A DNA stretch of 64,000 nucleotides, from assembly GCF_000682695.1 (NCBI RefSeq), contig NZ_AWFG01000085.1:62001-126000 (forward strand). Direction: 5' to 3'. Under the pieces are notes generated by a model. It made no database searches and had not been told where the DNA came from. It saw only the letters and a list, made by a program, of their open reading frames with translations. Positions 9,200 through 61,526 of the stretch are shown here, one piece after another; the first letter of the stretch is position 1, and the number at the start of each line of letters is the position of its first letter. The DNA comes from Hyphomonas chukchiensis (lineage in GTDB: Bacteria; Pseudomonadota; Alphaproteobacteria; Caulobacterales; Hyphomonadaceae). The position numbers and the translations under genes were made by a program.

Positions 9200-9913
9200 C
9201 TAGGCCGGGATTTCCTTGCCGGCCCAGTCGAAGCTCTTGCCGGTATTGGCGGGGGTGAGGCCTTCAATGACTTTGAGCAGATAGCCGGCCGACTGGTCCG
9301 GGCTGAAGAGCTGTGCGTCGGGGACGTTTGACTGGAAGGGCCGGGAGAGGCCGGTATCGACCGTGCCGGGATGCAGGGTGACGGCGATGAACCGGTCGTT
9401 CACGCGGGCCTGTTCGATGGCGTAATTGCGCACCAGCATGTTGAGGGCGGCCTTGGAGGCGCGGTAGGCGTGCCAGCCGCCGAGGCGGTTGTCGCTGATC
9501 GAGCCGACGCGGGCCGAGAGGGCGGCGAACACGGCGCGTCCCTTGCGGGGCATCAGGGGCAGCATGTGCTTTGCGACGAGGGCCGGGCCGAACGTATTGG
9601 CGCGGAAGACCTGTTCGAAGGCGTCCAGGGACTGATGGCGCCAGGACTTTTCGGGCTGGAGGCCGGACGCGTCCGACAGGAGTCCGGTAGCGACGATGAC
9701 GAGGGCGATGTCGCCTGTGCCTTTCAGCGCGGCGGCGAGGGCGGCAAGATCGGCTTCGCTTGTGATGTCGGCCGTGTGCGGCATGATCTTTTCGTCTGCC
9801 TCAGTGCCGGAGCGCGAGACGGCGTGGATGTGGCTGATGTCGGCGCGGGCGGCGAGCCGGGCCACGAGGGCGCGGCCTATTCCGCCGGATGCGCCGAAAA
9901 TGACTGCCTGCAT
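9200..9913 (-). CDS. Short-chain dehydrogenase/reductase (SDR) family protein
   Basis: A 237-residue Rossmann-fold oxidoreductase, probably NADP-dependent. Visible are the cofactor-binding motif VIFGASGGIGRAL at the N-terminus, the NxxG-type strand (IVIVATG region) and the catalytic YRASK motif preceded by a Ser-rich strand (ALSARVGSISDN). It resembles the C-factor/CsgA-like classical SDRs. The start at 9913 is preferred because GGAAGGAGC lies 7 bases upstream; a longer in-frame start would add an unrelated Arg/Ala-rich tail. It is the last gene of the minus-strand block following the photolyase/CFA operon; the substrate is unknown. Confidence 0.88.
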   Translation of the reverse strand: MQAVIFGASGGIGRALVARLAARADISHIHAVSRSGTEADEKIMPHTADITSEADLAALAAALKGTGDIALVIVATGLLSDASGLQPEKSWRHQSLDAFEQVFRANTFGPALVAKHMLPLMPRKGRAVFAALSARVGSISDNRLGGWHAYRASKAALNMLVRNYAIEQARVNDRFIAVTLHPGTVDTGLSRPFQSNVPDAQLFSPDQSAGYLLKVIEGLTPANTGKSFDWAGKEIPA

Positions 9914-10030
9914 GGTGGTGCTCCTTCCGCGAGAAGCTAAGGCGCGGGCCGCGCAAGGAAAGCGCCCAGAACAGATGGCGCCACATGCGCGGGGCATGTC
10001 GCGTCAGGAAGGCTGCGGCCATGGCCGGTG

Positions 10031-10726
10031 TCAGGACGAGTTGAGGTGCGCCAGGACGGCGGCGATTTCCGCCTGCAGGCCGCTCAGGTTTTCGCGTTCG
10101 AGCTTTGACCGAGCGCCGGAGCGGAAGGCGGCTGGCATATCGGCGCGAACCGGGGGCGGGGTTTGCGGCCGGCCGAGGCGGCGGCGCATGGCAGTGATGT
10201 AGACGAGGGGATTTTCGAAAACATCATTGAGCGCGCGCAGGCGCTGTATCAGCGGTTTTGCGGGAAGAAGGTCTGTCGGCTGCGGCGGGTAGGCGAAGGG
10301 CGCGGGCGGCGGCAGGGGCAGGTCGAGATAGCGGAAGCCGGGGCCGGTGGAGGCGGCGCGGCGGGGCGGAAGGGTGTGGCCCGCGCGTTTCGGCGGCTCC
10401 GCGATACGGAAACGGGGCTTACGGAGGAAGCGGGAAGATGCCCGGGCGCTGTGCGGCGCGCTGCCAGGTTTGGACGTTGCGTTGGTCTGCACGCGTGGCG
10501 GCAGGGCACCGAGCTCAAGTGCCATCAGGAAGAGGAGACGACGGACGAGCGGCTCGAAACGCGCAAGCTCTGCGGCGAGGCGGGCGCGGACCGGACGCAG
10601 CAGGAAGGGGCGACAGCCGGTGAGCCCGAGGGCGAAAGAGCGGTGGAGCCCTTCGACCAGATAGCCCGCCTGGTTCCACGCGAAGCGGACCATGCTGCTG
10701 ATAAGAGGGGTGGGCTGGTAATGCAT
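10031..10726 (-). CDS. Conserved-looking protein of unknown function
   Basis: Not recognised. It has 231 residues. The N-terminal 70 are helical and Arg/Leu-rich (ARLAAELARFEPLVRRLL), the middle is Pro-rich and basic (PLPPPAPFAYPPQPTDLLP), and a helical C-terminus ends in LQAEIAAVLAHLNSS. There is no signal peptide or clear membrane segment. It is 114 bases downstream of the CFA-like gene and 117 bases upstream of the SDR gene on the same strand. The reading frame is open with good third-position GC bias, and the opposite-strand frames here look like shadows, so I take it as real. Confidence 0.65.
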   Translation of the reverse strand: MHYQPTPLISSMVRFAWNQAGYLVEGLHRSFALGLTGCRPFLLRPVRARLAAELARFEPLVRRLLFLMALELGALPPRVQTNATSKPGSAPHSARASSRFLRKPRFRIAEPPKRAGHTLPPRRAASTGPGFRYLDLPLPPPAPFAYPPQPTDLLPAKPLIQRLRALNDVFENPLVYITAMRRRLGRPQTPPPVRADMPAAFRSGARSKLERENLSGLQAEIAAVLAHLNSS

Positions 10727-10840: not shown

Positions 10841-12064
10841 TCAGGCCTTGGAGATCGAGAACTGGCCGACATTGATGCGGCCGTCGAGGAAGCCGGCTTC
10901 GCAATAGGAAAGGTAGAAGTTCCACATGCGCTTGAAGGGTTCGTCGAAGCCGAAGGTCTGGATCTCGTCCCATTTGTCATTGAACGAACGGGCCCATTCA
11001 TGGCAGGTGCGGGCATAGTCCTGACCGAAATAATGCACGCCGTCATGGCGCAGGCCTGCCTTGGCGAACTGGTCCTTGAGAGCCGTTTCGCCTGGCAGCA
11101 TGCCACCCGGGAAGATGTAGCGCTGGATGAAATCGACGCGCTTGCGATAGCTCTGGAAGAGATCGTCATCGATGGTGATGATCTGGAGCGCCGCCTTGCC
11201 GCCCTGTTTCAGGCTGTCGAAGATCTTGGCGAAATAGCTCGGCCAGTAGGACTCGCCGACGGCCTCGAACATTTCGATCGAGGCGACGCCGTCATAGACG
11301 CCCTGATGGTCGCGATAGTCTTCGAGGCGGATTTCAACGCGTTCCGAGAGGCCTTCGCGCTGCATGCGCTCCATGGCGTAATCGCGCTGGGACGGAGAGA
11401 TGGTGAGGCAGGTGACCTTGCTGCCGCGATGCTTGGCGGCGTATTCCGCAAAGCCGCCCCAGCCACAGCCGATTTCAAGGATGCTGCTGGAGGGGCCAGC
11501 ATCAATCCGGTCGCAGATGCCCTTGTACTTGACCTGCTGGGCCTGCTCGAGGGACTGGTTCGGGCTTTCGAAGATGGCCGAGGAATAGGTCATGCTGGGG
11601 TCGAGCCAGAGGCTGTAGAAGTCATTGCCCAGATCATAATGGGCCATGATGTTGCGCCGCGCACCGGCCTTGGAATTGCGGTTGAAGAGGTGGCGGACCA
11701 TGTTGGCCCAGCGCACGACCATGCCGCCGCGCGCGAGCCGCTGGGCGCTTTCGAAATTGGCCGAGAAGAATTGCAGCACCTTGGTGAGGTTCGGCGTGGA
11801 CCACTGGCTGTCCATATAGGCCTCGGCAAAGCCGACATCGCCGCCGGCCAGGGCGCGCTTCACGAAGTTGTAGTCATGCACAATGACTTCAGCTTCAGGG
11901 CCGGGCTCTGCATTCCTGAAGAGCAGCTTGCGGCCATCGGGCAGCGTGAACTGGATCTTGCCACGCTGGGTGCGCAGGACGGTGAGGGCGACCAGCCGGA
12001 ACGTGGTGGGCACGCCCTTGAGACGGCCGATGGATTGCGCGGTGGCAATTATGGGATCGCTCAT
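10841..12064 (-). CDS. Cyclopropane-fatty-acyl-phospholipid synthase family methyltransferase
   Basis: SAM-dependent methyltransferase of the CFA synthase family (407 residues) expected to add a methyl or methylene group to unsaturated acyl chains of membrane phospholipids. The SAM-binding motif is ILEIGCGWGGFAEY, preceded by HYDLGNDFYSLWLDPSMTYSSAIF, the signature that opens the catalytic domain, and followed by YIFPGGMLP. The N-terminal 110 residues match the CFA lipid-binding extension. Its ATG overlaps the DUF1365 stop by 4 bases. In Rhodobacter-type genomes such paralogues sit with the same two neighbours and act in furan fatty acid synthesis (family knowledge), so methyl transfer rather than ring formation is possible. 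Confidence 0.92.
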   Translation of the reverse strand: MSDPIIATAQSIGRLKGVPTTFRLVALTVLRTQRGKIQFTLPDGRKLLFRNAEPGPEAEVIVHDYNFVKRALAGGDVGFAEAYMDSQWSTPNLTKVLQFFSANFESAQRLARGGMVVRWANMVRHLFNRNSKAGARRNIMAHYDLGNDFYSLWLDPSMTYSSAIFESPNQSLEQAQQVKYKGICDRIDAGPSSSILEIGCGWGGFAEYAAKHRGSKVTCLTISPSQRDYAMERMQREGLSERVEIRLEDYRDHQGVYDGVASIEMFEAVGESYWPSYFAKIFDSLKQGGKAALQIITIDDDLFQSYRKRVDFIQRYIFPGGMLPGETALKDQFAKAGLRHDGVHYFGQDYARTCHEWARSFNDKWDEIQTFGFDEPFKRMWNFYLSYCEAGFLDGRINVGQFSISKA

Positions 12065-12867
12065 GCGGCGTCTTTCACGATCTGGGCTGTGGCGCTTGCC
12101 GGTTCCGTGGCGATGGTGGCGGTGCGGTCGGGCGGCGTCGGGCGGGACCTGTATTTCGCACCGCGGAGCCAGAGGAAGGCAGCCTGCCAGTGAATGGCGA
12201 GCGTGACGCCGAGCGTCGAGAAAGGCCTCTTCAGGGCGAGCCCGAGCAGCGCGAGGGGCGTGGCCGACTGGCGCGTGGCCCGGATATTGGCCATGTGCAT
12301 GAGCTGGCCGTCCTTGAGGCTTTCGACCACCACGCCGAGGCGTTGGGCCGGCGCCCGCAGCGTGAAGCGATAGGTGCCGCTGACATCAAAGAAGGGGGAG
12401 ACGTGGAAGTATTTCTGCGCCTCATGCCGTGACCGGTCGGTGGAAACGGATGCGACATAGGAATGGGTGTCGCCGAACGTGTTGTTCACTTCGTAGATGA
12501 TGCCGCGCAGGGCGCCGTCCGGACCGTAGCCATACCAGAGCGAGATCGGCGCGAACTTGTAGAAGAGATGGCGCGGGAAGGTGACCAGGCGGATGGCGCC
12601 GCCTTCAAGCGATACACCGGCCTTGGCCAGCATGTCTTCGGCCCACGGACGCAAGGGCACATCCTGACGGGCGCCATGGTCGCGGCGCCGGAAGGAGAAC
12701 AGGCCCGGCTTGTCGACGGCGAAAAGCGACGTCTGCGCATCGGCTTCGTCGAGGCGATCAATGTCGATATCGATCATGGCGATCTTGTAGGCAAAGCGGC
12801 GCTCGAACGGCACATAGCGTGCGTGTACCGTCTGCCCCTGCCACAAATTGAGCGCTGGGGCGGTCAA
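12061..12867 (-). CDS. DUF1365 domain-containing protein
   Basis: A 268-residue member of DUF1365, a family almost always found between an FAD-dependent amine-oxidase-like protein and a CFA-synthase-like protein; the exact reaction is unknown but it is tied to modification of membrane fatty acids. Family segments visible include VHARYVPFERRFAYKIAMIDIDIDRL at the N-terminus and NNTFGDTHSY, KYFHVSPFFDVSGTYRF further on. I start it at the TTG at 12867, which overlaps the upstream TGA by 4 bases (TTGA) as do the other junctions of this operon. The alternative ATG at 12945 would overlap the previous gene by 82 bases and add unconserved residues. Confidence 0.88.
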   Translation of the reverse strand: MTAPALNLWQGQTVHARYVPFERRFAYKIAMIDIDIDRLDEADAQTSLFAVDKPGLFSFRRRDHGARQDVPLRPWAEDMLAKAGVSLEGGAIRLVTFPRHLFYKFAPISLWYGYGPDGALRGIIYEVNNTFGDTHSYVASVSTDRSRHEAQKYFHVSPFFDVSGTYRFTLRAPAQRLGVVVESLKDGQLMHMANIRATRQSATPLALLGLALKRPFSTLGVTLAIHWQAAFLWLRGAKYRSRPTPPDRTATIATEPASATAQIVKDAA

Positions 12868-14180
12868 ACCGACACCTCTGCTGCAATTTCCATGAACGGA
12901 GTTTTGCGCGAAGGCGCATGAATGTCCACGTTTTTCACCTCCCACGGGACCCGGCCGCCAAGCGACAGGGCGGCCGACAGGCCCGACTTGAGGCCATCCT
13001 CATGGAAGCCGCGGCCCATCCAGGCGCCCGCGAGCCAGAGGCCATTCCGGCCCTGTGTCCGGTTCAGCCCGCGCACGGCGGCCTCGGCGGCGGCGTCGAA
13101 TTGCGGATGGTCGAAGCTGTATTCATGGAATGTGAGATCTTCGCGCGGGGCGAATTCCGGGTTCAGCGTGATGAAAAGGGGGCGCGCATCGTCGAGGCCC
13201 TGAAGGCGGTTCATCCAGTAGGTGAGGCAGATGTCGCCATTGCTCTGCTTGATGACGTTCCAGCTGGCCCAGGCGTTGCGGCGGTTCGGCATCAGCGCCG
13301 GATCACGGTGGAGGTAGATCGTGTTGGGACGATAGTGGATCGAGCGCAGCAGGAAGGCCTGATCCTCGAAACTGTCCTCGACGAGGCGCAGGGCCTGGTC
13401 GGAATGGCAGGCAAGGATGACGTCGTCGAAGACCTGGGTGCGCTTGTCGGCGGTCAGGACGGTGACCTTGTCGCCGAATTGGGAAACGCGGGTGACGGGC
13501 GCATTCGTGCGGACGCGCTGGCCGAGTTCGGCGGCAACGGCGCGAACATAAGTCTGGCTGCCGCCGGTGACCGTGCGCCATTTCGGGCGCTCCTTGTGCA
13601 TCAGGCGGTGGTTTTCGAAGAACTGGAAGAAGCTTTGGGCCGGATAGTCCAGCATGTTGGCTTCGGGTGTCGACCAGATGGCGGCGCCCATGGGGAGGAT
13701 ATAGTTGCAGCGAAAAGGCTGGTCGAAGCCGTGCATGTCGAGCCAGGCGCCGAGTGTCGTGTCGGCGATCTTTCCGGCCGCGAATTCGGCGCGGGCGAGA
13801 TCGTTGAAGCGCAGGATGGTGCGCCAGAAGCGGTGGAATTTCGGGCTCAGGAAGTTGCGCTTCTGGGCGAATATGCCCCGCGCCGTGGACGCCCATTCCC
13901 AGCCGTCACGATCCGAGACGGCAAAGCTCATGTCCGAGGGCTGTGTGGCGACACCAAGCGCTTGGAAGAAGCCGATCAGGTTCGGGTAGTTCAGGCCATT
14001 GTAGACGATGAAGCCGAGATCGACGGCTGTTTCATGGCCGTCATAGTCGAACACATGGGTGCAGGCGTGGCCGCCGAGGCGATCATCCGCCTCGTAGACG
14101 GTGACGTCTGCGGTGTCTTTCAGCGCGTAGGCGGCGCCGAGGCCGGAAATGCCGGATCCGATAATTGCGATGCGTTTCAT
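12864..14180 (-). CDS. FAD-dependent amine-oxidase-like oxidoreductase
   Basis: A 438-residue flavoprotein with the dinucleotide-binding motif IIGSGISGLGAAYAL at the N-terminus, Glu at the end of strand 2 (VTVYEADDRLGGHA) and a C-terminal FAD motif GLWLAGAWMGRGFHEDGLKSG. It is of the NAD(P)-binding/amine-oxidase type that accompanies DUF1365 and CFA-like proteins; in Rhodobacter a relative is implicated in desaturating methylated acyl chains (family knowledge, not shown here). The ATG at 14180 overlaps the photolyase stop by 4 bases and its stop overlaps the DUF1365 start, so expression is coupled to DNA repair by the photolyase. Confidence 0.92.
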   Translation of the reverse strand: MKRIAIIGSGISGLGAAYALKDTADVTVYEADDRLGGHACTHVFDYDGHETAVDLGFIVYNGLNYPNLIGFFQALGVATQPSDMSFAVSDRDGWEWASTARGIFAQKRNFLSPKFHRFWRTILRFNDLARAEFAAGKIADTTLGAWLDMHGFDQPFRCNYILPMGAAIWSTPEANMLDYPAQSFFQFFENHRLMHKERPKWRTVTGGSQTYVRAVAAELGQRVRTNAPVTRVSQFGDKVTVLTADKRTQVFDDVILACHSDQALRLVEDSFEDQAFLLRSIHYRPNTIYLHRDPALMPNRRNAWASWNVIKQSNGDICLTYWMNRLQGLDDARPLFITLNPEFAPREDLTFHEYSFDHPQFDAAAEAAVRGLNRTQGRNGLWLAGAWMGRGFHEDGLKSGLSAALSLGGRVPWEVKNVDIHAPSRKTPFMEIAAEVSV

Positions 14181-15634
14181 GCGGCGTTCCGTTTTTCCTT
14201 GAGGGTATCATAAGCGTCGAGTGCGCGCTGGCGGGCCGTTGGGTGGTCGACGATCGGCTTGGGGTAGGTCTTGCCGAGGGTTATGCCGGCGGCCTTGAGC
14301 GTGTCGCTGCCGGCTTCCCATGGGGTGTGCAGAAACTTGTCAGGCAGGTCGGACAATTCCGGGCACCAGCGGCGGACATAAGCGCCGTTGGGGTCGAACT
14401 TCTGGCCCTGCGTGATCGGATTGAAGACGCGGAAATAGGGGGCCGCATCGGCGCCACTGCCGGCGGTCCACTGCCAGCTGGCGGGATTGGCGGCCTGGTC
14501 GGCATCGACCAGCGTGTCCCAGAACCAGTCCTCGCCGACCTGCCATGGCTGGAGCAGGTGCTTGGTGAGGAAGGAGGCCACGATCATCCGCACACGATTG
14601 TGCATGTAGCCGGTATGCCAGAGCTGGCGCATGCCGGCATCGACGATGGGATAGCCTGTCTGGCCCTCGCTCCATGCCTTTACCGCATCGGAATCCTTGC
14701 GCCAGGGCAGGGCATCGAAATCGGAATTGTAGTTTTCCGTGGCGAGGTCCGGATTGTAATAAAGCAGGACGTAGGAGAATTCCCGCCAGACCAGCTCGGA
14801 GAGGAAGGTCATGGCACTGGATTCGTCGAACCTGTCGGCGTTGATGCCGTGCTGGACGGCGCGCCAGACCTGGGCGGGGCTGATCTCGCCGAAGTGGAGA
14901 TGGGGCGAAAGGCGCGACGTGCCGTCTTCGAGGTCGGGCCTGTTGCGATCTTTGGAATAGGTGTTGATCGGGCCCTCGAGGAAATCGGAGAGGCGGTCCA
15001 TGGCGCCGGCTTCACCGGGGCTCCATGTTTCTTCGAGTCCGTCGGACCAATCAGGATTTGTGGGGTGCAGGCCAAGGGAATCCAGCGTGACGGACTCGAT
15101 ATCGGGACCGCTCAGTGACTTGGGGGCCGGAAGGGCGTCAGGCGCGCGATAGGCGGCCTTCATGGCTTTCCAGTAGGGGGTGAAGACCTTGTAGGGCGTT
15201 CCCGCGCCGGTGGTGATGTCCCACGGCTCCGTCAGCAGGCGGCCATTAAATGTGCTGACGTCCATGTTGTCCTGCTTGAGACTTGTCTTAAGGTCAGCAT
15301 CCAGGGCGCGCTCAGGGCCACCATAGCGGCGGTTCCAGAAGACAGCTGTGGCACCGGTTTCGACAATCACGTCGTTCAGTACGTCCTTCGCGGCGCCGAC
15401 GCGTATCGTGAGACGCCCGCCGGCCTTTTCAATGCGGCGCGCATGCTCTGCCAGTGACTTGCCGAGCCACCATTTGGATGCCCCGCCGCGGGCGCGCAAG
15501 CCGGAAGACTCTTCGTCATGGATATAGAGGAGGACCAGCGGCCGGCCGGTCTTCACGGCCGCCGTGAGGGCCGGATTGTCAGCTAGTCTCAGGTCTTCTC
15601 GGAACCAGACGATGGCGGGGGCAGAATTACTCAG
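14177..15634 (-). CDS. phrB: Deoxyribodipyrimidine photolyase, probable CTG start
   Basis: Light-driven FAD enzyme that splits UV-induced pyrimidine dimers. It has an N-terminal antenna-binding alpha/beta domain (residues about 1-135) and a C-terminal helical FAD domain with GGTSRLSPHLHFGEISP-like residues, WREFSY, YPIVDAGMRQLWHTGYMHNR and VDADQAANPASWQW. The obvious GTG at 15556 would remove the first strand and the conserved WFREDLRLADNPAL segment. The frame is open upstream to a stop at about 15670 but contains no ATG, GTG or TTG there. The CTG at 15634, with GGAG 6 bases ahead, gives 485 residues and the expected N-terminus. An ECF11-type promoter lies just upstream. Confidence 0.94.
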   Translation of the reverse strand: MSNSAPAIVWFREDLRLADNPALTAAVKTGRPLVLLYIHDEESSGLRARGGASKWWLGKSLAEHARRIEKAGGRLTIRVGAAKDVLNDVIVETGATAVFWNRRYGGPERALDADLKTSLKQDNMDVSTFNGRLLTEPWDITTGAGTPYKVFTPYWKAMKAAYRAPDALPAPKSLSGPDIESVTLDSLGLHPTNPDWSDGLEETWSPGEAGAMDRLSDFLEGPINTYSKDRNRPDLEDGTSRLSPHLHFGEISPAQVWRAVQHGINADRFDESSAMTFLSELVWREFSYVLLYYNPDLATENYNSDFDALPWRKDSDAVKAWSEGQTGYPIVDAGMRQLWHTGYMHNRVRMIVASFLTKHLLQPWQVGEDWFWDTLVDADQAANPASWQWTAGSGADAAPYFRVFNPITQGQKFDPNGAYVRRWCPELSDLPDKFLHTPWEAGSDTLKAAGITLGKTYPKPIVDHPTARQRALDAYDTLKEKRNAA

Positions 15635-15671: not shown

Positions 15672-15700
15672 TCTTACGCCCCAGATGCGCATCTGGATCA
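15672..15700 (-). promoter_or_regulatory. ECF11/RpoE(ChrR)-type promoter of the photolyase-FAD-DUF1365-CFA operon
   Basis: Read on the minus strand the -35 element TGATCC (15700-15695) is followed by exactly 18 bases and then the -10 element TAAGA (15676-15672). This is the consensus known for the singlet-oxygen-responsive sigma factor RpoE of Rhodobacter and other ECF11 members, whose core regulon includes photolyase and CFA-like genes. The expected start of transcription is about 7 bases further, giving a leader of some 30 bases with GGAG before the CTG start. The elements are seen; the sigma factor itself is not in the window. Confidence 0.75.
15681..15696. promoter_or_regulatory. Perfect 16-bp palindrome inside the ECF promoter spacer
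   Basis: CCAGATGCGCATCTGG is a perfect two-fold palindrome occupying the spacer between the -35 and -10 elements of the photolyase operon promoter and touching the -35. Its placement suggests an operator for a dimeric repressor or a second regulator, but no cognate protein is identifiable here. Chance occurrence cannot be excluded. Confidence 0.4.
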
Positions 15701-53853: not shown

Positions 53854-54081
53854 TCAAGCGCCCCTTCGCGCGCGTGCCTTCCGAAACCCACTGTCTCCCG
53901 CGATAAACGCCTCGAGCATTAGCGGCACGAGCATCGTGACAGATGCCTCAGTCCCGTACGCGGCTGCATGCACCTGCGCATACGCTTCCAGGTCCGCTGC
54001 CAGCGCCGGCTCTACGCTGATCGACAGTTTCTGCGGCGTTCGGTCCGGCAACGGCCCGATCTTCAAATTCACTTCACTCAT
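53854..54081 (-). CDS. DUF2274 domain-containing protein
   Basis: A 75-residue member of DUF2274, a small family found at the end of trb conjugation operons after trbI. It is mostly helical with QKLSISVEPALAADLEAYAQVHAAAYG, resembling a ribbon-helix-helix DNA-binding protein. The ATG overlaps the trbI stop by 4 bases, so it is translated with the mating-pore genes. Role unknown, perhaps autoregulation of the operon. Confidence 0.9.
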   Translation of the reverse strand: MSEVNLKIGPLPDRTPQKLSISVEPALAADLEAYAQVHAAAYGTEASVTMLVPLMLEAFIAGDSGFRKARARRGA

Positions 54082-55340
54082 GGCTGTTGGCCTCCTTCAT
54101 AGGGCTTCAGGACAATGTCCTCGTTGACGACGATGCCGAGCCGCCAGCCGGGGCGGATGGTGATGGTCGGCTGGACGTCGAGATTGCGGCGCACAATGTC
54201 CTGACCCGCCTGGTTCGCACCCGTCTGGGCCGACCGGCGGAGGGCGCGTGCGATGTCACCCTCATCATCGCTGGCAAGCTCGGACCCGACCCCGAGTAGC
54301 GTCGAAAGCGCAACGCCCTGCAGCAAGCGCCAGGAATGATAGTCGACCTTGTCTTCAAGCCCGGCATAGCCGCGGGCGTCCACGCCCGTGAGATTATCGA
54401 TCCTGATCGACGTGCCATCCGGCATGATGATGCGCGTCCAGACAAGCAGGGCGCGTGACTGGCCGAATGCGATGACACTGTCATAGCGGCCGATCACGCG
54501 GGCGCCTTGCGGCACAAGCACCGTCTCGCCGCTCACCGTATCATAGACCGGGTTCGTCACTTGCGCGATGACCTGGCCCGGCAGGTCGGAGTTCACCCCC
54601 GTGAGCAGGGTTGCAGGGATCACTGTCCCGGCCATCAGCTGCCAGGGGGAGACGGGCGTCTCGAGCCGGTGCGGATTGTAGATCGACGTGTCATCCGTCT
54701 CGCCGAGGAAATCCATCTTCCGTTCCTGCCGGTTCGGATCTTCGCTGAGCGACGCGCCAAACACGCCAGACGCAGAGTTCGCGAACGCTGACAGGTCCGG
54801 CATTTGCAGCGCGGGACGCTTGTCATCGGCTGTTTCTGACACCGATGACAGTCTTGCCCCGCTTGCTCCAACGGAGAAGAACACGCCGCTGCCGCGTGCG
54901 GCTTCGGACATGGCCGCCTCCCGCGCCGCAAGTTCCGCTTCGCGCATCTGGCGGGCCGTATCGACCTCTGTCGGCGGTGCAGCATCATAGGCCTCATCAA
55001 ACGTCATGCGTCCTTCGCGCCGGGCTTTCAGGATGGGGCCGCCAAGGTCACCCGGCAGCGGCGGCCCGAGTTCCGGCGCCTCGGGCTTCACGTCGCCATA
55101 GCTTGCCGGGAGCGCTTCCAGGCCTTCGGCCGTCGGCTTTCTCGCGGTCGCGTAGAGCTCGCGTCCGGCCGTGGCCTTGTCCCTCTCCGGGGATTGAAGC
55201 GCAAATGCCAGCGATCCGAGTATGACCGCACTGGCTGTCCCTAGCAGGATAGCAAGCGCGCGCTTCGAGAACCGCCGGACCGGCCGGGGCTTGCCGCGGA
55301 TCTCCAGAGATTCAGAGGCTGGGGAAGACCTCTGGCTCAT
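54078..55340 (-). CDS. trbI: Conjugal transfer protein TrbI (VirB10-like)
   Basis: Type IV secretion core component spanning the inner and outer membranes. The 420 residues have a cytoplasmic N-terminus, one transmembrane segment (RALAILLGTASAVILGSLAFAL, about residues 28-49), a linker and the C-terminal VirB10 domain (SPWQLMAGTVIPATLLTGVNSDLPGQVIAQV, VLVPQGARVIGRYDS, DGTSIRIDNLTGVDARGYAGL). It overlaps trbG by 4 bases and DUF2274 by 4. Confidence 0.95.
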   Translation of the reverse strand: MSQRSSPASESLEIRGKPRPVRRFSKRALAILLGTASAVILGSLAFALQSPERDKATAGRELYATARKPTAEGLEALPASYGDVKPEAPELGPPLPGDLGGPILKARREGRMTFDEAYDAAPPTEVDTARQMREAELAAREAAMSEAARGSGVFFSVGASGARLSSVSETADDKRPALQMPDLSAFANSASGVFGASLSEDPNRQERKMDFLGETDDTSIYNPHRLETPVSPWQLMAGTVIPATLLTGVNSDLPGQVIAQVTNPVYDTVSGETVLVPQGARVIGRYDSVIAFGQSRALLVWTRIIMPDGTSIRIDNLTGVDARGYAGLEDKVDYHSWRLLQGVALSTLLGVGSELASDDEGDIARALRRSAQTGANQAGQDIVRRNLDVQPTITIRPGWRLGIVVNEDIVLKPYEGGQQP

Positions 55341-56353
55341 CGGCCCGCATCTCCCAGATCGGACCGTGCGATCCGCACGACATCCTGCTTCTTCTCGCCG
55401 AGGCGGAGCTCGGCTTTCGCAAACAGGCGGTCGACCACATAATAATTCCCCGACATGCGGTAGTTCACCAATTGGGAGCGCCCGTCGCGGCCAATCACGA
55501 ACAGGGCGGGTGTATCGCCCTGGTCAAGCCGGGCGGGGAACTGGATATAGACCTTTCGGCCATCGTCGAATACGCGCTCCGGGCGCCAGTGCGGCCTGTC
55601 ACCTGCAAGCTCGTAGCGGAACTTCAGGCGTTCCAGCTGGAGGCCCTGCGGTGCATGCGGCTCCGCAGCCCGGGACGTGGCACTGGCAACATGGGTCACG
55701 AGTTGCTGGTCCGCATAACGCCAGGAGACGGCGGCCATATATGTCTCCTGGAATGCCTGAAGCTCGAGGTGGTAGGCGCGGCGTGACGTCGTCACAATCA
55801 GGTTTGTCCGGAGGCCGGGCTGGATCGGTTTGACGAGAATGTGAGCCTGCGCTGCCGTGCCAGTGCCCGACACGGTGTCGCCAAGTACCCAGCGGACCGT
55901 GTCACCGGCCGACACTGACAAGAGCTCCTCGCCGGGTTCGAGCGCGATGTCGGTCACCTGTTCTGGCGCGCAATAAACCTGATAGAGTGCTCCGACTGTG
56001 TAGGGATAGACTTGGATCGCGTTCATGTAATTGTCGAGCGAGGGTTCGATGGACGCCTTGCTGTTGGCAGTCTCAATCGCCTCAAAGGGTTTGAGCGATG
56101 ACGCGACAGCGGCAGCAACAGGCAGGGGCTTCAATTGTCCCGGCATCGGCACCGGGTGGTAGGTCGTCAGCACAACAGGTGATGGCACGCCGTCCAGGTC
56201 TTCTTCCGGTTCGAGAAAGAGGTCTTCGGCGAACGCTGTGTCATCCGGCAGCTCCGCATCAAGCAAGATGTCGGGCGCCCCAGCGCCAGAGGGAAAGGTT
56301 TCGCAAGCCGTAAGGCAAGTCGCACCGAGAAGGATCAGGGCAAGGCGTTTCAT
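55337..56353 (-). CDS. trbG: P-type conjugative transfer protein TrbG (VirB9-like)
   Basis: Outer-membrane-proximal core component of the mating pore. It is 338 residues, with a lipoprotein signal ending LTAC (lipid Cys near residue 17). The conserved body has PYTVGALYQVYCAPEQVTDIALEPGEEL, VKPIQPGLRTNLIVTTSRRAYHLEL and VFDDGRKVYIQFPARL, typical of VirB9/CagX. TrbG of this kind usually stabilises TrbI and the lipoprotein of the outer-membrane ring; here it carries its own lipobox. Confidence 0.94.
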   Translation of the reverse strand: MKRLALILLGATCLTACETFPSGAGAPDILLDAELPDDTAFAEDLFLEPEEDLDGVPSPVVLTTYHPVPMPGQLKPLPVAAAVASSLKPFEAIETANSKASIEPSLDNYMNAIQVYPYTVGALYQVYCAPEQVTDIALEPGEELLSVSAGDTVRWVLGDTVSGTGTAAQAHILVKPIQPGLRTNLIVTTSRRAYHLELQAFQETYMAAVSWRYADQQLVTHVASATSRAAEPHAPQGLQLERLKFRYELAGDRPHWRPERVFDDGRKVYIQFPARLDQGDTPALFVIGRDGRSQLVNYRMSGNYYVVDRLFAKAELRLGEKKQDVVRIARSDLGDAGR

Positions 56354-56359
56354 GGAAAT

Positions 56360-57049
56360 CTACTCCTGTTTGTGGTCTTGCGACCAGTTGAGGCCATGGA
56401 CGTAGAGTCCCAGCGGATTGGCTCGCAGGGTTTCCACATCGCGGGGCGGATCGATCACAATGGAAAAGATGCCCGTGTGGTGTGACCGGTCGATCTCGGC
56501 GCCATTTCGGAATGCCGTCTCGCGCCAGCGCACGGTGAAACTGTCATCGGAGGAGCGTACGACGCTGGTCACGTCGACCGAGACCGAGCGGTGTCCGATA
56601 TCGGCGAACGGGTCATTGTCACGGGCATAATCGTTGAGTGTCGCGGCGGCCCGGTCGGTCGCATAGGCATAGGCCTTCAGCCAGTTCTGGCGCACCACGA
56701 CCGGATCAATGGAAACCGAGCGCGTATTTGTGACAAAGTTCGCCAGATGATACGCGATCTGTGCATCGGTCGGCTCGTACTGCCCCTCGGCCGGGCCGAC
56801 GGCGCGTACGGCGCCGTCTGTCGTCAGTTCAACCACATACGGCGTCACAAAAGACTGGGTCGAGCGCCAGACAAGCCCGCCTGCCAGCACGAACGCGAGC
56901 GCAATCGATCCGAGGGCCGCGAGGCGCCAGTTTGCGGCCTGAACCCGGTAGGAGCCGATCCGGTCGTCCCAGGCCTGAGCCGCGCGCTGGTAGGGTGTGA
57001 CAGGTTCGGGTGTGTCGCCGTATCGGCAGGTTGTGCGTTTCCAAAGCAT
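56360..57049 (-). CDS. trbF: Conjugal transfer protein TrbF (VirB8-like)
   Basis: Inner-membrane assembly factor of the type IV secretion system, 229 residues. After a short cytoplasmic N-terminus (QRAAQAWDDRIGSYRVQAANWR) comes one transmembrane helix (about 44-62) and the periplasmic VirB8 domain, with SVSIDPVVVRQNWLKAYAYATDRAAATLND and SFTVRWRETAFRNG. It lies 6 bases from trbG and 6 from trbL in the operon. Confidence 0.94.
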   Translation of the reverse strand: MLWKRTTCRYGDTPEPVTPYQRAAQAWDDRIGSYRVQAANWRLAALGSIALAFVLAGGLVWRSTQSFVTPYVVELTTDGAVRAVGPAEGQYEPTDAQIAYHLANFVTNTRSVSIDPVVVRQNWLKAYAYATDRAAATLNDYARDNDPFADIGHRSVSVDVTSVVRSSDDSFTVRWRETAFRNGAEIDRSHHTGIFSIVIDPPRDVETLRANPLGLYVHGLNWSQDHKQE

Positions 57050-57055
57050 CTCTGT

Positions 57056-58390
57056 CTAATCCTCGTCTGATCGGAGCTGAACGGATGTGCCACCGCCTGG
57101 CTGGTCGCCGTCTCGGACGGCAGAGGCGGCCATCATGCCGGCATCACGGGTTGTCTGGCTGCGCCGGATGCGGCTTGCCCAATCGGGCGCTGACCGGTCA
57201 TTGGCGGTGGGCGGCGCAGAGGGCGTCGCGCCTGACCCGCCGGTCGCGGCAAATGCCGCGCGGCTTCCAGCTTGTGACCTCGCTCCCGGATTGCCAAATG
57301 CGCGGCGCGCGAACCCCGCAACTCCCGAGGCCGCGGTCTGGACGCCTGCGCTGGCCACGCCGCCCATGCCGGCAGCCGCTGCGCCCATACCCGTCTTGCC
57401 GGCGCGCGCCGCGCCGAGTGAATAGGCCGTACGTGCCCCGCCTGCCATGGAGGCGGCCGCGCCAATCGCACTCCGCCCGCCCTCCGCAACCGCAGACACA
57501 GCTGACTTCGCAACTGTCCCGCCGGCAACAGTGCCAGCTGCAACACCTGCCATCGTGCCGACGGCTGCGCCCGCACCGAGCTGCGGCGCGCCGGAGACAA
57601 GGCCGGTCGCGATGCCGGGCCCGAACAAACCGAGGGCGAGCAAGGCGAGCGACCCCAGGATAACGGAAGCCGCCTGCTCAAGCGTCACATTGTCCGGCTC
57701 GAACGTGGATGTGATGCTTGTGAAGATCGTGGATCCGATGCCGACAATGATGGCGAGCACCATGAGCTTGATGCCCGAGGCAATCACATTGCCGAGCACC
57801 TTCTCGGCGAGGAACGAAGTCTTGTTCCAGAGCGCGAAGGGAATGAGGACAAAGCCCGCCAGCGTTGTCAGCTTGAATTCGATGATGGTCACGAAGAGCT
57901 GGATCGCGAGGAAGAAGAAGGCGAGGAGCGTGATCAGCCAGGCGAGGAAGAGGACCGCGATGATCACGATATTTTCGAAGAAGGCGATCGGGCCTGTCAG
58001 TTTCCGGATTTCATCCAGCAGGGGATAGGCGGCATCAAATCCGGTCGCCGCGACGAAGCCGGGCTTCACGATGTCGTCTGCCGTCAGTGTCCCGCCGGTT
58101 GCATTGAGTCCAAGCTGGGCAAAGCTTCGGAACACGACGTCGGCGAGCAGGGCGAAATTGCCGAGGATCAGGGCAAAGGCGCCGACATAGAGGACCTTTT
58201 TCAGGAACCGGCCGATGACGTCCGTGTCCGGTCCCATGGCCCAGAAGAGACCGGCCAGCGTCACATCGATTGCGATCAGCACCGAAGTCAGCCAGGCGAC
58301 ATCGCCCTGTAGGAGGCCGAACCCGCTATCGATATAGGCGGAGAAGGTCGCGACAAACCGGTCGATGACATTGAGATCCTCCATGGCCAT
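57056..58390 (-). CDS. trbL: P-type conjugative transfer protein TrbL (VirB6-like)
   Basis: Polytopic inner-membrane channel component of 444 residues. Five or six transmembrane segments occupy residues about 30-270 (WLTSVLIAIDVTLAGLFWAMG; NIVIIAVLFLAWLITLLAFFFLAIQLF). A Gly/Ala-rich then Ser/Pro-rich tail of about 150 residues follows, as is common in TrbL. It overlaps trbJ by one base (TGATG). Confidence 0.94.
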   Translation of the reverse strand: MAMEDLNVIDRFVATFSAYIDSGFGLLQGDVAWLTSVLIAIDVTLAGLFWAMGPDTDVIGRFLKKVLYVGAFALILGNFALLADVVFRSFAQLGLNATGGTLTADDIVKPGFVAATGFDAAYPLLDEIRKLTGPIAFFENIVIIAVLFLAWLITLLAFFFLAIQLFVTIIEFKLTTLAGFVLIPFALWNKTSFLAEKVLGNVIASGIKLMVLAIIVGIGSTIFTSITSTFEPDNVTLEQAASVILGSLALLALGLFGPGIATGLVSGAPQLGAGAAVGTMAGVAAGTVAGGTVAKSAVSAVAEGGRSAIGAAASMAGGARTAYSLGAARAGKTGMGAAAAGMGGVASAGVQTAASGVAGFARRAFGNPGARSQAGSRAAFAATGGSGATPSAPPTANDRSAPDWASRIRRSQTTRDAGMMAASAVRDGDQPGGGTSVQLRSDED

Positions 58391-59112
58391 CAGTTCCGGG
58401 TGTAGGCGGCGCCGTCGCCGCGGAAGCGTTCGTGCCGGACCCGCGCCTGCTCTTCGAGCGCGGCGCGCCGGGAAGCCTCGACCGCCTCCATCCGGTACTG
58501 GGCCGCCATCAGCTGCTGCATCTGCATTTGCTGTTCGACAGAGAGGGCGATCAGCTGGTTGCCGGCCTGGGCCACAGAGAGATTGCCTGAAGCCGACTGG
58601 CTCTCACTGACAAGTTCGCTCAGCGTGCCTTGAGAATCAGCAATGGCCGACACGATCCCTGACTGGACCTGCACAGCGCCCGCAAAACTCCCCCGCGACA
58701 GACGCCACTGATCTTTTGCCTGCGCGGTGATCTCTTCGTTCGAGACGTCCTCGTAGCTCTCCGGGAAGGCCTCCTCATACCGGCGTTCTGACTCTTCAAC
58801 TTCGTAGGAAATCTCGTCGGCCTCACGCATCAGCGTGTCGATCCGTTCTAGCAGGCGTTTCAAATGCTCGATGGACCCATAGTCGAGGCGTTTGAGGTCC
58901 TCGGCCTGGTTCACCAGCATTTGCGCCTCGTGCTGGAGCTGCGTGATCTGGTTGTTGATCTGCTCCAGCGTATTGGTGGCCGTCACGATGTTCTGCACCA
59001 GGTTCGTCGGGTCGATCACGACGTCACCGACACCGAGCAGGGCGTCTGCGCGCGGCACCGTCAGGGACAGTCCCAACATCCCCACGAGTACAGCGGTCAC
59101 TCTGCGGCGCAT
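58390..59112 (-). CDS. trbJ: P-type conjugative transfer protein TrbJ (VirB5-like)
   Basis: Exported 240-residue protein of the mating pore, thought to sit at the pilus tip. It has a signal peptide (about residues 1-24), then DPTNLVQNIVTATNTLEQINNQITQLQHEAQMLVNQAEDL, a long heptad-rich coiled-coil typical of TrbJ. The ATG lies 16 bases inside the trbE 3' end. Some TrbJ-like proteins include an entry-exclusion lipoprotein TrbK nearby; I saw none between trbJ and trbL. Confidence 0.93.
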   Translation of the reverse strand: MRRRVTAVLVGMLGLSLTVPRADALLGVGDVVIDPTNLVQNIVTATNTLEQINNQITQLQHEAQMLVNQAEDLKRLDYGSIEHLKRLLERIDTLMREADEISYEVEESERRYEEAFPESYEDVSNEEITAQAKDQWRLSRGSFAGAVQVQSGIVSAIADSQGTLSELVSESQSASGNLSVAQAGNQLIALSVEQQMQMQQLMAAQYRMEAVEASRRAALEEQARVRHERFRGDGAAYTRN

Positions 59113-61526
59113 GGCACGGCCTCCCTGTCAGCGATGAGGTCAGAGGCCCAATCGAGCCCCTTCGCCGCGAGCCAGGCGGCAGCGAACCCGTCCGGTCCCA
59201 CGACGTCCATAACCTCATCCATCTGCACCTGATCGGCCTTCGACCCGGCCGCGCAGAATGCGAGCGCCACGGGACCCAGCTCCAGATCGAAGAGCCGGTT
59301 GCCCGCCGGGCATTGCAGGTAATAGTCCCGTTTCGGCGTTGCCCGCGCGATCAGCTGGGTCTGCCGGGCATTGAGACCAAACGCATCATAGGTTTTTGCC
59401 TGTCCGGGTTCTTCGGCCCGTGCATTGGCGAGGAATATCCGGGTGGGCGCGCTTTCGATCAGGGCCGGTGCAATCGCGCTCGAAGTAATGTCCGCCAGGC
59501 TCTGTGTCGCAAACACGACCGAGACGTTCTTTTTGCGAAGAGTCTTCAGCCAGTCCCGCAGGCGTCCTGCAAACAGCGGATGATCAAGGAAGAGCCAGGC
59601 CTCGTCGAGGATGAGCAAGGTCGGACGGCCGTCGAACCGCGCCTCCAGCCTCTCGAAGAGATGCGCAAGGACAGGCGCGGCAAGGCGCCTGTCCGACATC
59701 AAGGCTTCCATTTCAAAGCACGCCAGATCTGACGCTGCAAAACTGTCCGCATCTGCGTCGAGTAGCACGCCATAGGGCCCGTCCAGCGTGTAAGGCTGCA
59801 GCGCTTGCCTCAAAGCCGACGACTGGATCAAAGCCGTCAGCCCCGTCAGCGTGCGCTGGCGGCGCGGGGCTTCAGCCAGGCTCTTCAGCGCCGACCAGAC
59901 GGCCTGGCGTACTTCCGGGATGATCGTGACGCCTTCCTGTTCGATCAGTGCCAGGATCCAGTTCTGCGCGGCAGCGAGCGATCCTTCATCAGATATTTCA
60001 CTCAATGGCTGGAACGCGTGACTGCCGCCCAGGTCTAGGTCATACCAGTCACCGCCCAGCGCCATCGTCATGGCGCGCGCCGACTTTCCCTTGTCGAACA
60101 CGAAGACCTGGGCGCCTTCATAGCGCCGGAACTGAAGCGCGAGCAGGGACAAAAGAACCGACTTGCCGGCCCCTGTCGGCCCGACAATCATCATGTGCCC
60201 GACATCACCCTGGTGCGCCACCAGCCGGAACGGGGTGGAACTGGCCGAACGTGCCATCAGGAGCGGCGGGCCATCCAGATGGTCATTGCGCTCGGGCCCG
60301 GCCCATTGGGTCGACAGCGGCGCCATATGGGACAGGTCGACCGTATTCAGGATCGGCTGGCGCACATTGGCATAGGCCTCGCCGGGCAGGGTCCCGAGCC
60401 AGGCATCGAGGGCGTTGAGGGTTTCCGGGGTGGCGGTAAAGCCGCGGGCATTGATGACGCGTTCGGCAGCCCGGATACGTTCTTCGGCAACCAGCGGATC
60501 GGCATGGGTGAGAACGAGCGTTGCCGTGTAATAGCCAAACGCGACATGGCCTGCGCCGAGCGCCTGCAGGGCGGCGTCGACATCAGAGGCCTGATTGTCG
60601 GCGTCCGTGTTGAACTGGGTGGCCGGTTCATTGGTCAGGATTTCCCGGACATACGACACGAGCGAACGGCGCTTGGCCAGCCAGGCCCGCATGTAACGGT
60701 TGAGGATCTTCTCCGCGTCCGCTTTGTCGAGCGGTATGAACCGCGTCACCCAGCGGTACGGGAACCCGAGCTGGTCAAGTTCCGCCAGGAGGCAAGGCTC
60801 GCTCGTCCCCGGGAACTTGCGCACCGTCAGGACTTTCAGCGTCTCGCCGCCGAGCATGGGGGCGAGCCCACCGGTCACGTCCGTGTCGGCAAGCAGGCCG
60901 TCGAGGAACATCGGCGCCTCCGGTGCCCGAACTGGATGCCGTTTCAGGGAGATGCAGCCATGCAGGTAGGTCAGCGTTTCATCGTCATCCAGAAACCGTG
61001 CCTCCGGCATAAGGTCCGCCATGAGGTCCAGCGCCCGTACTGTCTCGGTTTCGAAACGGTCAAGGTTTTCAGCAAAGAAGCTGCGCGGCGCTGCGGCTGG
61101 ATCTTCGATGAACAGCTGCTCGACGCGGGCTGTCCGGTCGGCTGGTGGCATCCAGCTGAGGGTCAGATAGCAATCGGTTTCAAAATGCCGGCCCACCTCT
61201 TCGAACTGGGCGCGGCGTTCCGCGTCGACCAGCCAGGCGGCCGGATCACGCCAGCTGTTGTCCGGATACGAGGTCGAATCCCGCCGGTCTGCTTCGAACC
61301 AGAGCGCCCATCCGGACCCGAACCGCATCAGCAGATTATTCATCCGGGCAGAGATGGAGACCAGTTCTTCCGGCGTCGCGCTCTCAAGGTCAGGGCCACG
61401 ATAGGCAATCGTCCGCTGCAGGCTGCCATCCTTGTTGAGGATGATGCCGGGCGCGATCAGCGCGGCCCATTTGAGGTGGTCGGCGAGGCGCGCCGGGCGG
61501 GCGCGGTATTCACGGAGGTTCAGCAT
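59097..61526 (-). CDS. trbE: Conjugal transfer ATPase TrbE (VirB4-like)
   Basis: The large ATPase powering pilus assembly, 809 residues. The N-terminal VirB4 domain (LNLREYRARPARLADHLKWAALIAPG) is followed by a C-terminal RecA-like ATPase: Walker A GPTGAGKSVLLS near residue 450, FVFDKGKSARAM, Walker B LLILDEAWLFLD and the later FATQSLADI. It is full length. Its 5' end overlaps trbD by 7 bases. Confidence 0.96.
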   Translation of the reverse strand: MLNLREYRARPARLADHLKWAALIAPGIILNKDGSLQRTIAYRGPDLESATPEELVSISARMNNLLMRFGSGWALWFEADRRDSTSYPDNSWRDPAAWLVDAERRAQFEEVGRHFETDCYLTLSWMPPADRTARVEQLFIEDPAAAPRSFFAENLDRFETETVRALDLMADLMPEARFLDDDETLTYLHGCISLKRHPVRAPEAPMFLDGLLADTDVTGGLAPMLGGETLKVLTVRKFPGTSEPCLLAELDQLGFPYRWVTRFIPLDKADAEKILNRYMRAWLAKRRSLVSYVREILTNEPATQFNTDADNQASDVDAALQALGAGHVAFGYYTATLVLTHADPLVAEERIRAAERVINARGFTATPETLNALDAWLGTLPGEAYANVRQPILNTVDLSHMAPLSTQWAGPERNDHLDGPPLLMARSASSTPFRLVAHQGDVGHMMIVGPTGAGKSVLLSLLALQFRRYEGAQVFVFDKGKSARAMTMALGGDWYDLDLGGSHAFQPLSEISDEGSLAAAQNWILALIEQEGVTIIPEVRQAVWSALKSLAEAPRRQRTLTGLTALIQSSALRQALQPYTLDGPYGVLLDADADSFAASDLACFEMEALMSDRRLAAPVLAHLFERLEARFDGRPTLLILDEAWLFLDHPLFAGRLRDWLKTLRKKNVSVVFATQSLADITSSAIAPALIESAPTRIFLANARAEEPGQAKTYDAFGLNARQTQLIARATPKRDYYLQCPAGNRLFDLELGPVALAFCAAGSKADQVQMDEVMDVVGPDGFAAAWLAAKGLDWASDLIADREAVPCAAE

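Follow-up and report, generated by a model that had tools for sequence, protein, structure and literature searches.

The window, a stretch of 64,000 nucleotides from Hyphomonas chukchiensis (genome of 3.86 Mb in 106 contigs, completeness 99.96), carries a DNA photolyase gene (phr) on its minus strand between positions 14177 and 15634 (Pfam PF00875 and PF03441). The photolyase is followed on the same strand by a flavin amine oxidase (12864-14180; PF01593), a DUF1365 protein (12061-12945; PF07103), a CFA/mycolic cyclopropane synthase-like methyltransferase (10841-12064; PF02353), an ORF with no Pfam or NCBIfam match (10031-10726) and a short-chain dehydrogenase/reductase (SDR; 9200-9922; PF00106), the last gene of the presumed operon. 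The start of the DUF1365 protein is uncertain, and its ORF overlaps the preceding gene. The photolyase itself probably starts at a CTG codon at 15634, which is in frame and preceded by a GGAG; a start-codon scan from the stop at 15676 to the GTG at 15556 found no ATG, GTG or TTG in frame between them. In the photolyases of some relatives, a GTG stands near the position of this CTG. Elsewhere in the window, a run of minus-strand ORFs (54078-61526) resembles, on visual inspection, a conjugative transfer region.

The DUF1365 protein is probably the counterpart of UfaO/RSP_1090, DUF1365 being the family that we take to be linked to RSP_1090. The methyltransferase is UfaM/CfaS-like, and the SDR corresponds to RSP_1087 by type. 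The flavin amine oxidase is UfaD/RSP_1091-like, a correspondence based on product names (PMC5507510) and gene names (PMC7380195). The sequence-only reading had described the lipid genes as CFA-like. This suits the methyltransferase, but by domain type the genes also agree with the furan fatty acid enzymes UfaM, UfaD and UfaO (PMC7380195) and thus resemble a furan-fatty-acid set rather than a pathway for cyclopropane synthesis only. The same reading had assigned the photolyase and lipid-modification genes to the targets of an RpoE/ECF11 sigma factor, and the gene set indeed matches the published core RpoE-ChrR regulon, as listed for Pseudomonas syringae (PMC5507510). In Rhodobacter sphaeroides, RpoE is reported to activate phrA, cfaS and rpoHII (PMC7074977), and the core regulon there (phrA, cfaS, RSP_1087-1091, rpoHII) has its likeness here in a photolyase, a CFA-like methyltransferase, an amine oxidase, an SDR and an RpoH-type sigma factor (discussed below) as targets or presumed targets.

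Upstream of the photolyase, the minus strand reads TGATCC, 18 bases and TAAGA from 15700 to 15672, as the sequence-only reading had noted. At spacings of 16 to 20 bases, the window has no other exact match; 0.10 matches are expected, and at least one was found in 9 of 100 window shuffles. The same letters contain TGATCC-N16-CGTA (15675-15700, minus strand), with the -35 element at 15695-15700 and the -10 element at 15675-15678, which is identical to the published ECF11 (RpoE-ChrR) promoter motif. TAAGA, which overlaps the TA of CGTA, is only partly conserved: TA, the part common to both, is all of it that is kept throughout the relatives, and we rejected TAAGA as the -10 core. Judged from the aligned upstream regions, the -10 core is CGTA at a spacing of 16, because TGATCCA and CGTA stay in place across the genus while the spacer varies. 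The proposed recognition pattern therefore stands as a promoter type that is conserved across the genus, but with a different -10 core and spacing than first assigned.

A perfect 16-bp palindrome, CCAGATGCGCATCTGG (15681-15696), spans part of the -35 element and extends into the spacer. Being perfect and lying between both hexamers, it could be regarded as an operator, with the photolyase controlled by a light regulator of the MerR/LitR type instead of an ECF sigma factor, and MerR-linked control of blue-light genes has been reported in Vibrio cholerae (PMC5241685). The palindrome is broken already in the two closest relatives, in which TGATCC and CGTA stay, and over 38 sites of the genus every spacer column past the A that follows TGATCC stays at or below 0.7 bits. 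We therefore consider such an operator very improbable, reject it as not conserved and take the palindrome as a product of chance.

Chance might also account for the hexamers themselves, a reading that the genome-wide counts of the exact string appear to favor. The pattern with TAAGA has five matches in the genome against three for the pattern read backwards, so the exact string by itself lies near chance genome-wide, and the shuffles of the window point the same way. One of these matches (L003) is directly ahead of a Hva1_TUDOR gene, and another (L006, spacing 19) is ahead of a large open frame. Of the others, L004 lies inside a coding region, and L005 (spacing 19) runs into the end of a gene on the opposite strand. 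TGATCC-N16-CGTA is found 13 times in the genome and never backwards, a comparison that is flattering because the reversed pattern is scarce whatever the spacing (62 forward and 11 backward matches summed over spacings of 10 to 22 in the whole genome). The same caveat applies to the observation that forward matches outnumber backward matches in every one of the 41 genus genomes. Weight is therefore placed on the spacing control and on conservation. Spacing 16 gives 13 matches, against an average of 4.1 for the remaining twelve spacings between 10 and 22 (Poisson P 0.0003, or 0.004 when corrected for 13 spacings). By our own reading, seven of these 13 sites are not ahead of a plausible gene.

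For the conservation analysis, the genus of the compared genomes was taken to be Hyphomonas. The photolyase is 85% identical to its homologue in Hyphomonas oceanitis, and the eight closest photolyase loci belong to Hyphomonas, other Alphaproteobacteria and Hyphomonadaceae; in all eight, TGATCCA and CGTA are fixed in position while the spacer changes. A photolyase match at E 1e-100 was present in 39 out of 41 genomes, of which 38 were used. Genome G003 was left out of the count, as its photolyase match begins only at residue 138, though TGATCC-N16-CGTA still precedes it. With a relaxed pattern, an element of the TGATCCA-N15-CGTA type lies 71 to 87 bases ahead of the aligned photolyase start in 38 of the 38 upstream regions, and [TG]GATCC-N16-CGTA in 35 of them. 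It was found in none of the 38 on the opposite strand and in none of 474 control windows taken from within these loci. The -35 element is TGATCC at 29 sites, GGATCC at six, and GCATCC, AGAACC and CGATCC at one each. Since the search pattern presupposes some of the letters, it is the controls and not the column counts that carry the argument. On the contrast between 38 of 38 loci and 0 of 474 controls, we judge the site to be real; its retention at about the same distance across the genus refutes a chance match, to which we give practically no credence. The initial view that the match was unlikely to be accidental is upheld by conservation and not by the string alone.

Two side observations concern the -35 element. 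In seven genomes of what we call the TCQ type (defined below; G004, G005, G006, G018, G032, G035 and G036), the photolyase has GGATCC or GCATCC and the promoter of the sigma gene TGATCC, which perhaps reflects graded promoter strength. In G027, the photolyase site is AGAACC-N16-CGTA.

Outside the genus, the element is less common. Among 80 related photolyase loci, searched up to 1500 bases before the photolyase (several have less than 1500 bases upstream), TGATC[CAT]-N16-CGTA is present in 21, eight of which belong to Hyphomonas or close relatives. Most upstream regions of these related photolyase loci have no such element, which counts against our preferred explanation, namely that the site before phr is a promoter for an ECF11 (RpoE-ChrR) sigma factor. 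We nevertheless hold this explanation with high confidence, sigma binding being deduced from the motif, its conservation and the genes that it precedes. The promoter is a further member of the RpoE-ChrR type already published, and promoter, operon and targets all match. TGATCC-N16-CGTA was found by ChIP in P. syringae (PMC5507510), which is not a phototroph and in which the phrB operon is a target of the PSPTO_1043/1042 system. In Shewanella oneidensis, the same elements are described for rpoE2-chrR and for an operon that includes phrB and cfa, and the transcription starts of rpoE2 and pgpD have been mapped (PMC4336711). A photo-oxidative response of the RpoE-ChrR type in non-phototrophs is accordingly already in print (PMC5507510, PMC4336711). 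We regard the element before phr as, very probably, a true switch belonging to this known alarm against oxygen damage generated by light, and a conserved one. It places the Hyphomonas genome inside the RpoE-ChrR system, and its evolutionary footprint defines the promoter base by base.

An ECF11-like sigma factor, the type on whose presence in the genome the initial proposal depended, is encoded on contig C30 (locus L001, about 886-1443) and adjoins a chrR gene that follows it (L001, 1474-2130). Its best relative of known structure is R. sphaeroides RpoE with 141 bits, the next one scoring 59 bits. Its assignment to ECF11 is based on this proximity, among solved structures and not on an ECF11-specific profile, and on the linked chrR. 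Both domains of this ChrR match R. sphaeroides ChrR, and the protein scores 120.8 bits, just under the TIGR02451 cut-off of 124.5. Like its counterpart in R. sphaeroides, it has a cupin-like domain (Pfam PF12973), and this domain contains the HxHxxxE metal ligands that are retained in all 38 ChrRs of the genus. The TIGR02451 profile search of the genome yielded two ChrR-like genes, the second of which is discussed below as chrR2.

The sequence-only reading had also expected a ChrR with a zinc anti-sigma domain, and in this respect it failed. In R. sphaeroides ChrR, the zinc ligands of the anti-sigma domain are His6, His31, Cys35 and Cys38, and zinc binding is reported as necessary for inhibition (PMC6852236). 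All four ligands were found in only one of the 38 genus genomes with a sigma-linked ChrR (G027) and not in the other 37, including the genome studied here. In 29 genomes, again including this one, an E[TA]Q motif replaces HxxxCxxC (ETQ type), and eight others carry a CQ motif (TCQ type), likewise without the zinc ligand set. Of the two zinc sites of the inhibitor, one has thus been lost in this group. By its ligand residues, the protein is ChrR-like without the anti-sigma zinc site and falls outside the zinc-binding (ZAS) class. Among soluble class I anti-sigma factors, about 72% are reported to carry the zinc motif (PMC7406223), so that a ChrR without it is uncommon but within the known range. 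G027 (L141) is the only genus genome examined with an HHCC ChrR, and its ORF ends in the cupin half.

Loss of the ligands extends beyond the genus. We surveyed 70 loci of the order that were chosen by score; eight had no sigma gene in the stretch, which left 62. All four ligands are present in 24 of the 62 sigma-linked ChrRs and incomplete in 38. At 28 of the 62 loci, 14 of the 24 with ligands and 14 of the 38 without, an element lies no more than 250 bases before the sigma gene, and the systems without a zinc site therefore appear to be maintained. What part the ChrR zinc finger plays in singlet-oxygen sensing is under debate (PMC6432622), and a lineage that keeps the regulon without the zinc ligands would offer a natural experiment on this question: continued inhibition and response by its ChrR would mean that the zinc finger does not serve as the sensor in that lineage.

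The ChrR-linked sigma gene of this genome differs in a second way. Its operon has no recognizable element, and in all 29 ETQ-type genomes the best match upstream of the sigma gene, with mismatches allowed, reaches eight of ten letters at most, which is close to shuffled sequence. In the nine genomes that are not of the ETQ type, the element does precede the sigma gene with nine or ten out of ten letters (seven exact, two with one mismatch); within the TCQ lineage, it is exact in seven out of eight genomes and has one mismatch in the eighth. The sigma-chrR pair is thus not recognizably autoregulated in this lineage, unlike in R. sphaeroides; rpoE2-chrR of S. oneidensis is autoregulated (PMC4336711), and the sigma gene of PSPTO_1043/1042 in P. 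syringae has its own copy of the promoter (PMC5507510). This absence, together with the 14 Sigma70 region-2 matches in the genome, leaves some room for another sigma factor as the reader of the photolyase site. Against it, the sister lineage carries the element before its ChrR-linked sigma gene, as do 28 of the 62 loci across the order, and the motif is that of the tested RpoE-ChrR systems. On these grounds, we consider another sigma factor unlikely and retain the ChrR-linked ECF11-like protein as the probable reader. Upstream of some ETQ-type sigma genes, a TTGC-N17-GATACT-like pair is seen instead, by eye and in a few of the aligned rows. GAGTTAAGGCCAAACTACGAC lies at 739-759 of L001, between a divergent gene and the ECF11 sigma gene, and in 13 of 38 genomes, each of them of the ETQ type, some form of it precedes the sigma gene; it is perhaps a divergent promoter or an operator.

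Two further genes, each preceded by one of the 13 sites of this genome, are candidate targets of the same promoter. The RpoH-type sigma gene (rpoH2), which scores above the NCBIfam NF005693 cut-off, is preceded by the exact element at 23 of 30 loci; six of the remaining seven have [TC]-ATCC-N16-CGTA and one has GGTCCA-N16-CGTA. chrR2 is an orphan ChrR-like gene on contig C37 (L002, 1471-2055, minus strand), with no sigma gene around it and no Sigma70 region-2 match on that contig. ChrR2 aligns with ChrR over both domains (probability 98.8 in a profile comparison of the two families), and the element precedes chrR2 at all 21 loci. The chrR2 of Azospirillum is a different case, as it is paired with a sigma gene. 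R. sphaeroides likewise differs from Hyphomonas in this orphan under the same promoter. Among the literature matches listed (titles and abstract openings, with few subscription journals), none dealt with a Hyphomonas ChrR or with an orphan ChrR under ECF11 control. ChrR2 is present in 19 of the 29 ETQ genomes and in two incomplete genomes in which no main ChrR was located. It was found in none of the eight TCQ genomes and not in G027, and ten of the 29 ETQ genomes gave no match or, in G013, a weak match only. This weakens the case for ChrR2 as an essential replacement of autoregulation.

We propose that ChrR, encoded beside the sigma gene, would hold the ECF11-like sigma factor and release it upon exposure to singlet oxygen or organic peroxides. 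RNA polymerase would then begin some 30 to 35 bases upstream of the phr CTG codon and transcribe phr together with the lipid-modification genes as one operon; chrR2 and the RpoH-type sigma gene would be driven by the same element. The ChrR of this lineage would act as an inhibitor with no zinc site in its anti-sigma domain and with its cupin metal ligands retained. The zinc-site-less ChrR, the missing autoregulation and the orphan ChrR2 under the same promoter are less expected features and, as read from the genomes compared, make the system a variant of the published type. A bolder reading is that most genomes of the genus have been rewired, with a housekeeping-type promoter for an ECF11 sigma gene that is no longer autoregulated, a zinc-less ChrR that senses via its cupin domain or proteolysis and, in many species, an unlinked ChrR2 that is a conserved target of the sigma factor and provides inducible negative feedback. 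We advance this combination only tentatively and would sooner expect it to fail than to hold, because ten ETQ genomes have no clear ChrR2.

ChrR2 has two sequence features of its own. The anti-sigma region of the L002 gene and of 20 relatives contains conserved histidines (DHxAGNH ... D[LM]H), and the cupin part carries a CxC in all 21 ChrR2 proteins and in none of the 38 main ChrRs, among which the G027 protein is shortened. Among the 13 sites of this genome, candidate further ones lie before a PilZ gene (L108), a Hva1_TUDOR gene (L103) and a gene with a signal-peptide-like start (L102).
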